A stretch of DNA of 33,380 bases. Source: a virus. This document shows, in pieces, positions 15,283 to 22,863 of this stretch (positions are counted from its first letter, which is position 1; every line of letters starts with the position of its first letter). Both the position numbers and the translations under genes were made by a program. The DNA is taken from the IMG/VR virus record IMGVR_UViG_3300025030_000309, positions 1 through 33,380 of that record. One strand, given 5' to 3'. The notes under the pieces are model-generated. The model was not told the origin of the DNA and did no database searches. It saw only the letters and a program-made list of their open reading frames with translations.

Positions 15283-15349
15283 GCTGTTTGGTGAGGGTCG
15301 GTGTGCGCTCCTCCGGGAGCCCCCAGAGGCACCGCCCTCACCAAACAGC
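15283..15349 (-). ncRNA. Long structured hairpin in the 265-bp gap before the coiled-coil gene
   Basis: A perfect 15-bp inverted repeat (15283-15297 with 15335-15349) is extended inside by a second CGGTG/CACCG stem with one bulged base. A GCTCC/GGAGC stem sits at the tip, so the whole 67 nt can fold into one long rod. No T-run follows on either strand, so it is not a simple terminator. It lies between the DUF2815 gene and the DNA polymerase pair. It could be an RNase III processing site, a small RNA, or part of a replication signal; none of these is shown. Confidence 0.5.
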
Positions 15350-15364
15350 CCTCTTGCGAGGGCT
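15347..15364 (-). terminator. Possible weak terminator or attenuator hairpin after DUF2815 gene
   Basis: On the minus strand AGCCCTC and GAGGGCT form a 7-bp stem with a 4-base loop 10 bases after the DUF2815 stop. It is followed by GTTTGG rather than a clear T-run. Its second arm shares three bases with the first arm of the 67-nt hairpin, so the two structures compete. Termination is therefore uncertain. Confidence 0.35.
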
Positions 15365-18112: not shown

Positions 18113-18277
18113 TCACACAAACAGGACGACCGCTTCGACGGCGTGGAATACCAGGGCGGCGGCCAGCATTGCGTAGAGCAGTCGTAGGTGCCGGCGGATG
18201 TCGGCGATCGGGTCATCCCAGATTCCGCCGTGCTCGACCAGGTACTTTATCCGCTGCTTAATCTCCTCGTCGTTCAT
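18113..18277 (-). CDS. Small membrane protein co-transcribed with the repressor
   Basis: An ATG at 18277 overlaps the repressor stop (ATGA) and opens a 54-codon frame that ends 7 bases before a clear terminator. The product has a charged N-terminal part (MNDEEIKQRIKYLVEHGG), then WDDPIADIRRHLRLL and a C-terminal membrane helix (AMLAAALVFHAVEAVVLFV). Being in the repressor transcript it should be made in the lysogen. That fits a role in superinfection exclusion or host membrane change, although no known family is recognised. Confidence 0.7.
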   Translation of the reverse strand: MNDEEIKQRIKYLVEHGGIWDDPIADIRRHLRLLYAMLAAALVFHAVEAVVLFV

Positions 18278-18762
18278 GACTTTGTGAGCCTCACTAGTTT
18301 CGTAATGAAGGATTCGTCGACCCTTCCGATGAGCCGGGTGTGCTCATAGGCGAGTGCCGTCAAGTCTGCGAGCTGATCGGGCGTAGCTCTGTGACCGGCG
18401 TCACGAAGGGCGGCGGCCACAGCCCTGACACATGTACCTAGTGCCTCGTCGTCGACTGTTCTGGTATCGCCGTGCTCGCTGTCGAGCCAGCCTACGGGCA
18501 GGCCGAGGGTCTGCTCCATCTCCCGGGCGACCTTCTCGCTGACCTCGCGCGACGGGTTGGGGCCGGCGAGCTGGGCGACGTAGCTGCCGTTGGTGTGGCC
18601 GAGCTTCTTGGCGAGCGAGGTTGGCCCGCCCCAGGTCTTGATCAAACTGCGCAGGTTGTCCCGGCGCTGGTCATAGACGGACTTCATAGGCCGGGAGCGT
18701 AACAAAACGACATTAGCGTTTGCAACATCAGTTGCGCGGCGTCCGAACGGGTGGATCGACAT
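18274..18762 (-). CDS. CI-like lysogeny repressor (XRE-type HTH, no peptidase domain)
   Basis: The ATG at 18762 is chosen because a GAAAGGGCG ribosome site precedes it, giving 162 residues. An inner ATG at 18687 (MKSVYDQRRDNLR) starts closer to the conserved domain but lacks such a site. The HTH lies in LIKTWGGPTSLAKKLGHTNGSYVAQLAGPNP, typical of short phage repressors, followed by EKVAREMEQTLGLPVGWLD. The C-terminal 80 residues are helical and have no LexA-type Ser/Lys cleavage motifs, so RecA-driven self-cleavage is unlikely. It is divergent from the Cro-like gene. It is the best candidate to bind the TAGCA-N2-TGCTA operators, but binding is inferred. Confidence 0.85.
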   Translation of the reverse strand: MSIHPFGRRATDVANANVVLLRSRPMKSVYDQRRDNLRSLIKTWGGPTSLAKKLGHTNGSYVAQLAGPNPSREVSEKVAREMEQTLGLPVGWLDSEHGDTRTVDDEALGTCVRAVAAALRDAGHRATPDQLADLTALAYEHTRLIGRVDESFITKLVRLTKS

Positions 18763-18868
18763 CAATACGCCCTTTCTGTGCGGGTTGGCGAGGTAAGTGT
18801 GCTTATCGATTGTTAAATTTTTTCCATGATCCCTGCACAACTACGGTTTATCTGTGCGGTAGCTAACA

Positions 18869-18930: not shown

Positions 18931-19251
18931 ATGAAAACGATTACCGCCATCAAGGCATGGATGCGGGCGGCGACGCCCTTGGAACGGGAGGCCCTTGCTG
19001 ATGGGGTCGGCACCTCGGTGGCGATGCTCCACCAGTATTCGGGCGGCCACCGCCAGGCGAGCGCCGAGACGGCCGGAAAGATCGAGATGGTCACCGCGGC
19101 GATGCACAAGGCGAGCAAGGGCCGGCTGCCGAAGATCGTTCGCACGGACGTCTGCGAAGCCTGCCGCCAGTGCCAATACGCCGCGAAGTGCCTCGGCGAG
19201 CGCGCCGTGGTCAGCGACTTCCCGATCGTTGCCGAGCAGGTGGCGTCGTGA
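18931..19251 (+). CDS. Cro-like HTH regulator with C-terminal four-cysteine cluster
   Basis: The 106-residue protein starts behind a GAAAG site. Residues about 18-52 (LEREALADGVGTSVAMLHQYSGGH, then SAETAGKIE) form an HTH of the kind used by Cro/YdaS-type phage regulators. The C-terminal part has C75-x2-C78-x2-C81-x5-C87 (CEACRQCQYAAKC), an arrangement that can hold zinc or an iron-sulphur cluster. The location opposite the repressor marks it as the lytic-side regulator. The metal-type cluster is uncommon for Cro proteins. A GTGA overlap joins it to the next gene. Confidence 0.75.
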   Translation: MKTITAIKAWMRAATPLEREALADGVGTSVAMLHQYSGGHRQASAETAGKIEMVTAAMHKASKGRLPKIVRTDVCEACRQCQYAAKCLGERAVVSDFPIVAEQVAS

Positions 19252-19681: not shown

Positions 19682-19690
19682 TGCTAAAAT
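19682..19690 (+). promoter_or_regulatory. Possible extended -10 promoter before the primase operon
   Basis: TGCTAAAAT combines an extended -10 motif with a TGCTA half-operator. The same GTGCTAAAAT occurs in the consensus promoter at 5850-5879. No good -35 box is seen, so confidence is low. Confidence 0.3.
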
Positions 19691-19695
19691 GAATA

Positions 19696-19816
19696 CGCCA
19701 AACCTTTTTTAATCGAGTTACCTTTGGCGGACCTCACGACCCTGTTACTCGGCAGGGGAAGGTTTGGCGACTTTCCGTGGGGTCCGCCAAAGGTACGTTT
19801 TTTGAAAGTCGCCAAA
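19696..19816. other. Cluster of five CGCCAAA repeats with interlocking inverted repeats; possible replication origin or RNA switch
   Basis: CGCCAAA occurs at 19696, 19785 and 19810 on the plus strand and at 19723 and 19763 on the minus strand. They build three inverted repeats: 19696-19706 with 19759-19769 (11 bp), 19719-19733 with 19781-19795 (15 bp, perfect), and 19766-19775 with 19804-19813 (10 bp). The first and second interlock, as do the second and third; the first and third exclude each other. The last arm ends just before the start codon at 19817. P4-type primases bind short repeated motifs at their origin, so an origin is one reading; a folded leader RNA is another. Confidence 0.5.
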
Positions 19817-20131
19817 ATGTCTAAGACCGTAATACCGGCACAGCGGGGTTTCCAGTTTGTCTACGCCGAAGTAGAGGACGGCGCCCCGTTCATCATATCC
19901 GAACCGGTTATCGCCTGGGTCGTTGACCTCTCGGCCGGCAAACACGACATCACGCCAGTGACACCGAGCGGGATGGACGACGGCCGATTCATCGTCTACC
20001 CGGACTGCTCAGTGTTTGACGTCATCTCCGAGACTTGGTTTGAAAGTCTCAATGCGGCGATAAGTGATCTCCAGTCGAGCGTCAGATGTGAAGCCGAAAC
20101 AGAACCCAGCGCCGCGGAGGAGCTGGCATGA
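19817..20131 (+). CDS. Small protein upstream of the primase gene
   Basis: The start is the ATG at 19817 (MSKTVIPAQRGFQF), giving 104 residues. A longer frame starts inside the repeat cluster and is not preferred. The protein is mostly beta-type: FVYAEVEDGAPFIISEPVIAWVV in the centre, then RFIVYPDCSVFDVISETWFESL. Its GAAAG ribosome site lies in the right arm of the third inverted repeat, so folding could hide it. An ATGA overlap joins it to the primase gene. No family is recognised. Confidence 0.65.
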   Translation: MSKTVIPAQRGFQFVYAEVEDGAPFIISEPVIAWVVDLSAGKHDITPVTPSGMDDGRFIVYPDCSVFDVISETWFESLNAAISDLQSSVRCEAETEPSAAEELA

Positions 20132-22764
20132 ACTTCTTCCGCAACCAGGGGAGGGAACTGCTTGCCAACGGCTACCTGATCGTCCCCATCAAACCCGGGC
20201 ACAAACGTCCCGCCATCAAAGGGTGGCAGAACTCCAGGCTCGGCGCCGCCGACCTCGGCAAGCACGCCGATCACGGGGTGGGTGTCCTGTGCGGGCAAGG
20301 GGCGGTGCCATTGGTCGCGATCGACGTCGACTCCTACAACGCTGAGTTGTCTGAGCGGTTCGCGACGTGGTGCCTGGATAACCTCGGATACGCCCCCCAC
20401 CGCGTCGGGATGGCGCCTAAGACGCTGCTGGTCTATCGCGCAGAGCACGAGGGGTGGGACAAGCTCATCAGCCCGGTTTATGTCGGTGGAGGGTGCGAGC
20501 ACCGTCTCGAGGTGTTGGGCAACGGCCAGCAGTTCGTGGCCTACGCAATCCATCCCGACACCAAAGCCCCCTACGAGTGGCTCGACCTTGTGGGGGGTCT
20601 GGTTGGCATCAAAGCATTGGACCTACCGATGGTCACTGCGGCGCAGGTTGAGAAAGCCGCCGAAGTATTCAACGCAATGGCGCTGCAGATGGGGCTTGAG
20701 CGCAAAACCCCGGCGCAAAAGCAGGTCGCTGTCCCAGAGGCGCCGAAAGATCGCACACCGAAGGCAGACGACGACTTCTTCGGTCGCGTGAATGAAGCCG
20801 CGATGGCTGACCTCGCAGCGTGGGTGCCGTCGCTTTTCCCCACCGCGAGAGAGCAGCAAAACGGATATCGCGTTGCCTCTGTCGACCTCGGGCGCGACCT
20901 TCAGGAAGACATCTCGGTCGTCACTGAGGGTATCGTCGATTTCGGCGTGGCGGATCAAGGCGACGCACGGCAAGGGAAACGGACACCGATCGACCTGGTG
21001 CTTGAATGGGCGCCGGCAATGCTAGACGACCCGTTCGCCGTAACCACACCGCGCGACGCGGCGGATTGGCTGTGCGCATGCCTTGACCGCCCGCGCGAAG
21101 CCTTTGGATGGGGGCTGCGTTTCCGCAAGGAGCTGGCAGCGGACCACCAGGCGGTCAATGAGTTGCGCCAACAGGTCAAGCGGCTGATCGAGCAGTGCGA
21201 CAACGACATTGAACTGCTCGATCGGCGCTCGGACGTCGGCAAGGCGATCAGCGAGGGGTTGCGCAACACCGCGTTGGCGCCGCTTGTCCTGCGCAGCGTG
21301 CAGGCGCGCTACAAAGAGATCACCGGCAGTGGATTGACCGTCGCGGAGGTGCGCAAGAATCTGGCAGATACCTCGGCTCCGACAGTTCGTGCGCGGCGCC
21401 CATTGACTGAGTTCGGTAACGCCGAGCGCATGCTCGACAAGTTCGGGCGCGGCCTCATGTACGTGCCGGATCTGGGCCAGTGGTACCGCTGGACGGGCAT
21501 CTATTGGCAGAAGGCGAACGACGTTGAGATCGAGTTCTACGCCAAGGAGACGGTCAAGGCGCTGGTACAGGAAATGGACGACCACCCCGACTCGGCGGAG
21601 TTCTTCAAGTTCGCCGCGCTCAGTCAGCAAGCGAAGATGGTGCGCAGCATGGTGTCCCTGGCCGCCAGCGATCCGAGGGTGATGGTCCCGTTCAGCGAAC
21701 TCGACCAGCGGAGCCATTTGCTTGGGGTGGCGAACGGGGTTGTTGACCTGCGTACTGGCCAACTCCTGGACCCAGACCCCGAACTACGTATCACCAAATG
21801 CACCGGGGGCGAGTTCCACCCGGGGGCGAAAGCGGATCTGTTCCGACAAACAGTGCTTGACGTCTTCAAAGGGGATCAAGGGCAGGCGGATTTCTTCCAG
21901 CGCCTGATCGGCTACTCCGCGATGGGGAACCCCGTGCAGCAGATCATGGTTATTCCGTTTGGTAATGGGGCGAACGGGAAGTCGACCGTGCTCGGGGCCG
22001 TGCGAAAGGCCTTCGGCAGCTACGCAAAGACGGCCGACCCCTCGACCTTCGTATCGGAGAGCCGTGGGGCCAGCGGCGCCGGCGCGGCGCGCGAGGACTT
22101 GATCCGGTTGATGGGTTTGCGTTTCGTCTACGTGAGTGAACCGGATGAGAACGGCGAGCTCCGCGAGGGTTCGATCAAGAGCATGACAGGAGACGAGGCC
22201 ATGACCGCGCGAGGCCCCTACGCCAAGGCGTCGGTGGACTTCCAACCAACTTTTACAGTGTTCATGCCGACCAACCACAAACCGATCGTCAAAGGTAACG
22301 ACGACGGCATCTGGCGCCGCTTGGTGATGGTGCCGTTCACCAGGAACTTTGAGAAAGACGCCACCGTTCAGCGCGACGTCAACAGGGCGGAGAAGTTGGC
22401 CGCGGAACTTGATGGGGTGTTGGCGTGGATTATCGAGGGGGCGCTGGCTTACCAAGAGCACGGTCTGGTGCTGCCGGAAACCGTTAAAGAGGCGCGCAAC
22501 GAGTACCGCGCGCAGATGGATTTGCTCGCGGACTGGGTAGAGGAGTGCTGCGAAGTGCACGCCGACCTCACCGAAGCGCCACGTGCGCTTTGGCGCTCGT
22601 GGGAGGAGTACGCAAAAAATCGCGGACTCCTTCGGTACGTTCCGACCATTGTCGCGCTTGGGCGCAAGTTGGAACAGCAGTTCCCGATGGTCCGAAACTC
22701 AAAAGGGCAGCGAGTGCGCTGTGGATTGCGTGTTCGCGACGATTTTGACGAGGCGCTGGCCTAG
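20128..22764 (+). CDS. Primase-polymerase / SF3 helicase (P4 alpha-like)
   Basis: The 878-residue protein combines primer synthesis and origin unwinding. The N-terminal AEP prim-pol domain has LLANGYLIVPIKPGHKRPAI, the metal-binding VAIDVDSY (D66, D68) and the later LEVLGNGQQFVAYAIHPDT. A long helical middle (about 200-420) leads to a D5_N-like region (RMLDKFGRGLMYVPDLGQWY). The C-terminal SF3 helicase has Walker A GNGANGKST (residues 612-620), Walker B RFVYVSEPDENG and motif C FMPTNHKP, with the arginine-containing IWRRLVMVPF. All key motifs are present. It works with the family A polymerase. The start overlaps the previous stop (ATGA). Upstream CGCCAAA repeats may be its binding sites. Confidence 0.95.
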   Translation: MNFFRNQGRELLANGYLIVPIKPGHKRPAIKGWQNSRLGAADLGKHADHGVGVLCGQGAVPLVAIDVDSYNAELSERFATWCLDNLGYAPHRVGMAPKTLLVYRAEHEGWDKLISPVYVGGGCEHRLEVLGNGQQFVAYAIHPDTKAPYEWLDLVGGLVGIKALDLPMVTAAQVEKAAEVFNAMALQMGLERKTPAQKQVAVPEAPKDRTPKADDDFFGRVNEAAMADLAAWVPSLFPTAREQQNGYRVASVDLGRDLQEDISVVTEGIVDFGVADQGDARQGKRTPIDLVLEWAPAMLDDPFAVTTPRDAADWLCACLDRPREAFGWGLRFRKELAADHQAVNELRQQVKRLIEQCDNDIELLDRRSDVGKAISEGLRNTALAPLVLRSVQARYKEITGSGLTVAEVRKNLADTSAPTVRARRPLTEFGNAERMLDKFGRGLMYVPDLGQWYRWTGIYWQKANDVEIEFYAKETVKALVQEMDDHPDSAEFFKFAALSQQAKMVRSMVSLAASDPRVMVPFSELDQRSHLLGVANGVVDLRTGQLLDPDPELRITKCTGGEFHPGAKADLFRQTVLDVFKGDQGQADFFQRLIGYSAMGNPVQQIMVIPFGNGANGKSTVLGAVRKAFGSYAKTADPSTFVSESRGASGAGAAREDLIRLMGLRFVYVSEPDENGELREGSIKSMTGDEAMTARGPYAKASVDFQPTFTVFMPTNHKPIVKGNDDGIWRRLVMVPFTRNFEKDATVQRDVNRAEKLAAELDGVLAWIIEGALAYQEHGLVLPETVKEARNEYRAQMDLLADWVEECCEVHADLTEAPRALWRSWEEYAKNRGLLRYVPTIVALGRKLEQQFPMVRNSKGQRVRCGLRVRDDFDEALA

Positions 22765-22766
22765 TC

Positions 22767-22863
22767 TTGACAAGTTTGACAAGTTCGACCTCTGTTTTGA
22801 AGAAGTCTTTATACGTATACGAAAAGTCTTAGAAAAAGGGCCTGAACTTGTCAAACCTGTCAA
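22767..22863. repeat. 20-bp inverted repeat with TTGACAAG direct repeats, in the 149-bp gap before the packaging genes
   Basis: 22767-22786 (TTGACAAGTTTGACAAGTTC) pairs with 22844-22863 with one mismatch. Each arm holds two copies of a TTGACA/TGTCAA unit. The AT-rich loop contains the palindrome TATACGTATA (22810-22819). The element starts 3 bases after the primase stop. It could be a binding region for a late regulator, a terminator-like barrier, or a replication element; no promoter with good spacing is evident. Confidence 0.6.

Follow-up and report, generated by a model that had tools for sequence, protein, structure and literature searches.

A leader RNA with interlocked arms upstream of a phage primase operon is probably a C4/CI-type antisense system

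We analysed a 33,380-base virus record (the window, to which coordinates without a prefix refer) and found that the leader of its primase operon, at 19696–19816, probably encodes an antisense RNA system of the C4/CI type, through which the phage replication operon is controlled and kept off in lysogens. The arms of the leader are kept complementary by paired mutations among relatives, which marks it as a new analogue of the P1 and P4 antisense immunity RNAs. Good documentation of superinfection immunity based on RNA is limited to a few phages, namely P1, P7 and P4. We infer that a free RNA arises by processing or termination, acts in trans and has a role in lysogeny.

An earlier note on this DNA had described five CGCCAAA heptamers in both orientations, building three inverted repeats with interleaved arms. 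The heptamers are present, at 19696 (+), 19723 (−), 19763 (−), 19785 (+) and 19810 (+), and the repeats do interleave, two of them being longer than had been given: repeat 1 joins 19696–19706 to 19759–19769 (11 bp, perfect), repeat 2 joins 19719–19738 to 19776–19795 (20 nt, 95%, 19 paired, instead of 15) and repeat 3 joins 19763–19775 to 19804–19816 (13 bp, perfect, instead of 10). The last arm had been placed at the ribosome site of the next gene, and it does end at the ATG at 19817, where the ribosome site is weak. The number of CGCCAAA copies in the window is unremarkable (10 versus 6.7 ± 2.6 expected). When the whole window was shuffled 300 times with dinucleotides preserved, no shuffle contained a 14-bp stem interlocked with so much as one 10-bp complement, whereas in the unshuffled window the 14-bp stem interlocks with complements on both sides; the interlocked arrangement is not due to chance. 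The plus-strand RNA folds at −58.7 kcal/mol, 5.5 standard deviations below shuffled sequences (z = −5.5). Heptamers 2 and 4 form part of the closing stem, and the stems of relatives have unrelated sequences; the repetition of five units is therefore coincidental in part, and conservation as a set is limited to heptamers 1, 3 and 5. Elsewhere in the window, further complementary 10-mers (10961, 23888) were near the chance level. Apart from the closing stem, a single stem in the window reaches 14 bp or more with a loop of 30–100 nt, at 15283–15350.

The elements of the leader, all on the plus strand, follow one another from 5′ to 3′ as a −10 element, a1, b1, a closing stem that encloses a hairpin with b′ in its loop and then a′, and, in many phages, a2. 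An extended −10 element, TGC-TAAAAT (TGCTAAAAT, 19682–19690), predicts a transcript start at about 19696–19698, at a1. The upstream target a1 (CGCCAAACCTT, 19696–19706) is thus the predicted 5′ end of the transcript and pairs with a′ over 11 perfect bp. The second target, b1 (TCGAGT, 19713–19718), adjoins the 5′ side of the closing stem, whose arms, an inverted repeat with covariation, occupy 19719–19738 and 19776–19795. Between them are the hairpin CCCTG/TTACTCGG/CAGGG (19740–19757), with an 8-nt loop (19745–19752) containing b′ (ACTCGG, 19747–19752), which is complementary to b1, and the antisense segment a′ (AAGGTTTGGCGACTTTC, 19759–19775), which pairs with a1 (11 bp) and with a2 (13 bp). 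In the window, the b1/b′ pair has only 6 bp, five Watson–Crick pairs and one GU pair. A T6 tract (19798–19803) after the closing stem gives a terminator-like end, and the downstream target a2 (GAAAGTCGCCAAA, 19804–19816) covers the weak ribosome site and adjoins the ATG. The C4-like segment from 19719 to 19795, supported by its fold z score of −5.5 and by our covariance models R1 and R2, is the predicted 77-nt antisense RNA core, presumably a stable free RNA.

The leader is followed by a 104-aa leader ORF (19817–20131, +), for which there was no family match and whose stop overlaps the start, at 20128, of an 878-aa primase-helicase (20128–22764, +) with domain matches to Prim-Pol and D5_N. This primase shares about 50% identity with its counterpart in Bordetella phage BPP-1. 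DNA and protein searches returned no close copy of the leader or of the 104-aa ORF. Upstream lie a divergent CI-like HTH regulator (18274–18840, −), recognised by sequence inspection and without a family assignment above the curated cut-off, and a Cro/YdaS-like small protein (18931–19251, +; weak match only), the first gene of the rightward operon. A similar HTH protein is also encoded upstream in L112 and L113, and the HTH motif RRxNLRxxxxxWGGPTSLxxKLGHxNGSYxAQL is conserved, and divergently encoded upstream, in several RNA-carrying phages.

The same anatomy was found in 13 other leaders, representing nine complementarity types: L014, L051, the L077 group, L039, L105, Acidovorax phage ACF1, L112, L121, L113, L118, L141, L149 and L156. 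A layout scan of primase-relative loci gave L077–L080, L091 and L039, upstream of the primase; the hairpin common to these led to L105, and BLAST to ACF1. R1, our covariance model of the core, was trained on trimmed cores, so that the E-values of its training members are not independent; L051 (E 0.0023) and L014 (E 0.13), neither of which was in the training set, were retrieved with it. Both leaders lie directly upstream of their primases and possess a and b pairs of their own, and L014 was accepted despite its E-value on account of its position and these independent pairs. Pattern scans yielded L112, L113, L118, L121, L125, L141, L149 and L156. Their matches fell into two classes, with a long closing stem (14 to 25 pairs, score at least 12.5) or without one (score at most 9); L163 and the weaker L154 were left out as apparent chance matches in coding sequence. 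Since L112, L113, L118 and L141 were retrieved by an a1..a′ pattern, the a1:a′ pairing in these four is there by selection; their b pairs, stem and promoter were unselected. Searching 398 Pseudomonadota genomes with R2 gave no match, a result of little weight, since few candidates were scored per genome.

The earlier note had proposed covariation of the arms in relatives as a check, and the arms do vary with compensation. The closing stem has no common sequence among the leaders, yet 98% of its cells are paired, compared with 38–54% in slid controls, and double changes occur at 13 of 14 pairs, a count to be read with each stem trimmed to its own best register. In every type, the full closing stem begins directly after b1, and b1 can pair with the hairpin loop. 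From one phage to another, b1 and b′ have entirely different sequences but remain complementary: besides TCGAGT/ACTCGG in the window, the pairs are TATGAGT/ACTCATA (L014), ATGAATG/TATTCGT (L051), CTGTCC/GGACAG (L112), CGTGTA/TACACG (L113), CCAGTA/TACTGG (L118), CCAACA/TGTTGG (L141), CGCAAAG/TTTTGCG (L156) and CCGCAGAA/TTTTGCGG (L077). The b pair played no part in finding the loci, apart from the TTTTGCGG hairpin that is constant in one group. A comparison of fold energies for the whole upstream and inner segments was uninformative, as the hairpin stems cross-pair, and was replaced by runs on the loop only combined with permutation. The pairing of each b1 with its own b′ exceeded all 5040 permutations for seven types; with nine types, 20000 random permutations all fell short of it. 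Two forms of the a box occur, CGCCAAAC in one group (CGCCAAA in the window) and CGCCAGCC in the other (CGCCAGC), each shared by a1, a′ and, where present, a2, which have changed in step. Each of the 13 leaders has 7–12 Watson–Crick pairs between a1 and a′. The downstream target a2 is present in 9 of the 13, next to the start codon in L112, L113, L077, L039, L105, ACF1, L149 and L156, and is absent from L014, L051, L118 and L141. Beside a2, a clear b2 was not found in the window or in the 13 leaders.

Wherever the downstream operon was readable, it encoded a replication primase-helicase, of at least three kinds. The Prim-Pol/D5_N kind follows the leader in the window (a Prim-Pol domain, on a truncated contig, follows it in L118), AAA_25 with a TOTE-type primase or PriCT in L112 and L113, and a VapE-like protein in L141, L156 and ACF1. 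The leader ORFs between the RNA and the primase have 11 or 12 aa in L112, L014 and L051, 65 aa in L113 and 104 aa in the window. The stops of the 11–12-codon ORFs (L014:2680–2712, L051:3950–3995, L112:5494–5530) overlap or abut the primase start, suggesting translational coupling.

In all 13 leaders, a TANNNT hexamer ends 4–7 nt upstream of a1, compared with a background of 1.9%; from this fixed position, a1 is where transcripts should start. In the CGCCAGC group, the −35 region of this promoter is overlain by the short palindromes TCGCAAATGCGA, TCGCAATTGCGA and TTAGCGATCGCTAA (L077:2725–2750; L039:2325–2345; upstream of a1 in L149 and L156). These are probably phage repressor operators, in which case RNA and protein control would share one promoter. 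The earlier note had also predicted that the arms would form pseudoknots or alternative folds as RNA, and the energies describe two mutually exclusive folds: the nascent RNA up to a′ adopts an a1b1:b′a′ fold (−32.4 kcal/mol), and the full-length RNA adopts the closing stem (−58.7 kcal/mol) once its 3′ arm has been made. The a1:a′ pairing is within the nascent minimum-free-energy fold in 14 of 14 leaders, and the closing stem is within the full-length optimum in 12 of 14. The covariation of the closing stem, b1/b′ and the a box supports the half of the earlier note that read the repeats as an RNA switch.

We propose the following mechanism. The transcript would begin at a1, and its 77-nt segment 19719–19795 would fold so that the closed stem displays b′ in the hairpin loop and leaves a′ accessible; the antisense RNA would be the leader itself, terminated or processed. 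In a lysogen, this RNA would bind new leader transcripts through b′–b1 and a′–a1. With its a1b1 occupied, a new transcript could not use its own a′b′ for the competing a1b1:b′a′ helix, and the closing stem, followed by T6, would form early, ending transcription before the primase, while pairing of a′ with a2 would cover the start of the leader ORF and block its translation. With too little antisense RNA, the a1b1:b′a′ helix would form first and delay the closing stem, allowing expression of the leader ORF and the primase. The b pair would be the specificity (immunity) key and the a box a general key. Some observations count against this model: four leaders are without a2, the b pair of the window is short, and the CGCCAGC group has no T-rich tail after the stem, so that one termination mechanism does not fit all leaders.

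A purely cis-acting attenuator, which would flip between the a1b1:b′a′ helix and the closing-stem terminator in response to a ribosome on an upstream ORF, a phage protein or transcription speed, with no free antisense RNA acting, is an unlikely but more serious alternative. It predicts the same covariation as action in trans, both folds lie in one molecule and are ordered in transcription, and a T-rich tail follows the stem in five of the seven CGCCAAAC types (L014, L113, L118 and L141 besides the window). An attenuator, however, would do without a distinct complement such as a2 at the start codon, found in nine of the 13 leaders; the fast turnover of the b pair beside a constant a box is the pattern of immunity specificity, and both known counterparts, C4 and CI, are trans-acting.

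The C4 antisense RNA is a trans-acting RNA of about 77 nt that is processed by RNase P. The P1 C4 RNA acts through a′/b′ and the ribosome site (PMC5320573), and in the P4 CI RNA the replication genes are controlled by termination through seqA/seqC (PMC4825925). As in P1/P7 C4 (RF01695), the leader has a1–b1 upstream, a closing stem, a b′-loop hairpin followed by a′, and, where a2 is present, a second target before the first ORF, and the C4 length of about 77 nt (PMC5320573) corresponds to the 77-nt core predicted here. Unlike C4, it is without the tetraloop hairpin P2, the core having only one conserved hairpin; its b1 lies directly against the closing stem; a2, at the start codon, takes the place of a2 plus b2 as the downstream target; and it precedes, and would control, a primase instead of an antirepressor. 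Membership of RF01695 was taken as a covariance model match of at least 45 bits. The positive controls P1 and P4 scored 68.8 and 74.9 bits, whereas the window was unmatched even at E 10 and its relatives likewise; because the C4 model was unmatched and the tetraloop hairpin is missing, we do not file the leader as a member. The P4 CI RNA (seqA-seqB-seqC) is similarly a leader-encoded antisense RNA, with complementary sites on its two sides and a replication (primase) operon downstream, but it is a full member of the Rfam C4 family, which the leader here is not; compared with CI, leaders of the CGCCAAAC group have a T tract directly after the stem. IsrK and c4-a1b1 (RF01394, RF03163) are likewise short leader RNAs with a1/b1, there upstream of C4, and their models had no match in the leaders. 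Rfam scans of the window and its relatives gave no known family, and the leader RNA is undescribed in the literature searched, a search whose coverage excluded subscription journals.

The earlier note had offered a replication origin, with the CGCCAAA units as iterons bound by the primase-helicase, as the other reading of the repeats. Five heptamers next to a P4-like primase gave it some appeal; we now regard it as very improbable, since heptamers 2 and 4, those of the closing stem, are unconserved, the element precedes unrelated proteins of the D5_N, AAA_25/TOTE-AEP and VapE types, and a better candidate lies downstream. The GC-skew check suggested in the note gave no clear origin signal at the leader locus. 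We also rejected the class of iteron-type origins for the leader, as the units are not conserved together and the type of initiator differs between carriers. The better and widespread candidate occupies 22767–22863, from the primase stop to the next gene, where two tandem 9-mers TTGACAAGT and their inverted copies flank an AT-rich centre of about 60 bp. The same layout, with other unit sequences, follows the primase in 17 of 29 relatives, compared with 1 of 529 control windows, and also occurs in BPP-1 and Acinetobacter phage 4316; judged from the sequence, this is likely the replication origin of this phage group. The leader RNA model had no match in BPP-1 or in Acinetobacter phage 4316. Operators of a phage repressor or Cro protein around a second promoter would account for the promoter at the leader and for the −35 palindromes of some relatives, but the long-distance 20-bp arms, the stem covariation and the variable complementary b loops are unlike operator variation, and a1 to a2 lie inside the transcript, making this reading highly unlikely as well.

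It is possible, though we advance it tentatively, that the leaders form a new family of phage immunity RNAs in which the terminated leader itself enforces the next termination, giving a self-sustaining switch, in which a constant a box and an exchangeable loop/target of 6–8 nt provide modular specificity, and in which the module has moved between phages with unrelated primase-helicases. The family, which in this reading is distinct in sequence from Rfam C4, is missed by the Rfam C4 model and stands before several replication operons that are unrelated to one another, in phages from the environment and in one Acidovorax isolate. Its naturally occurring loop/target pairs form a series that can be interpreted as immunity groups and that offers a direct test of how the loop sets phage incompatibility. 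The leader also suggests that, in BPP-1-like podoviruses, replication may be controlled by RNA besides CI/Cro-like proteins.
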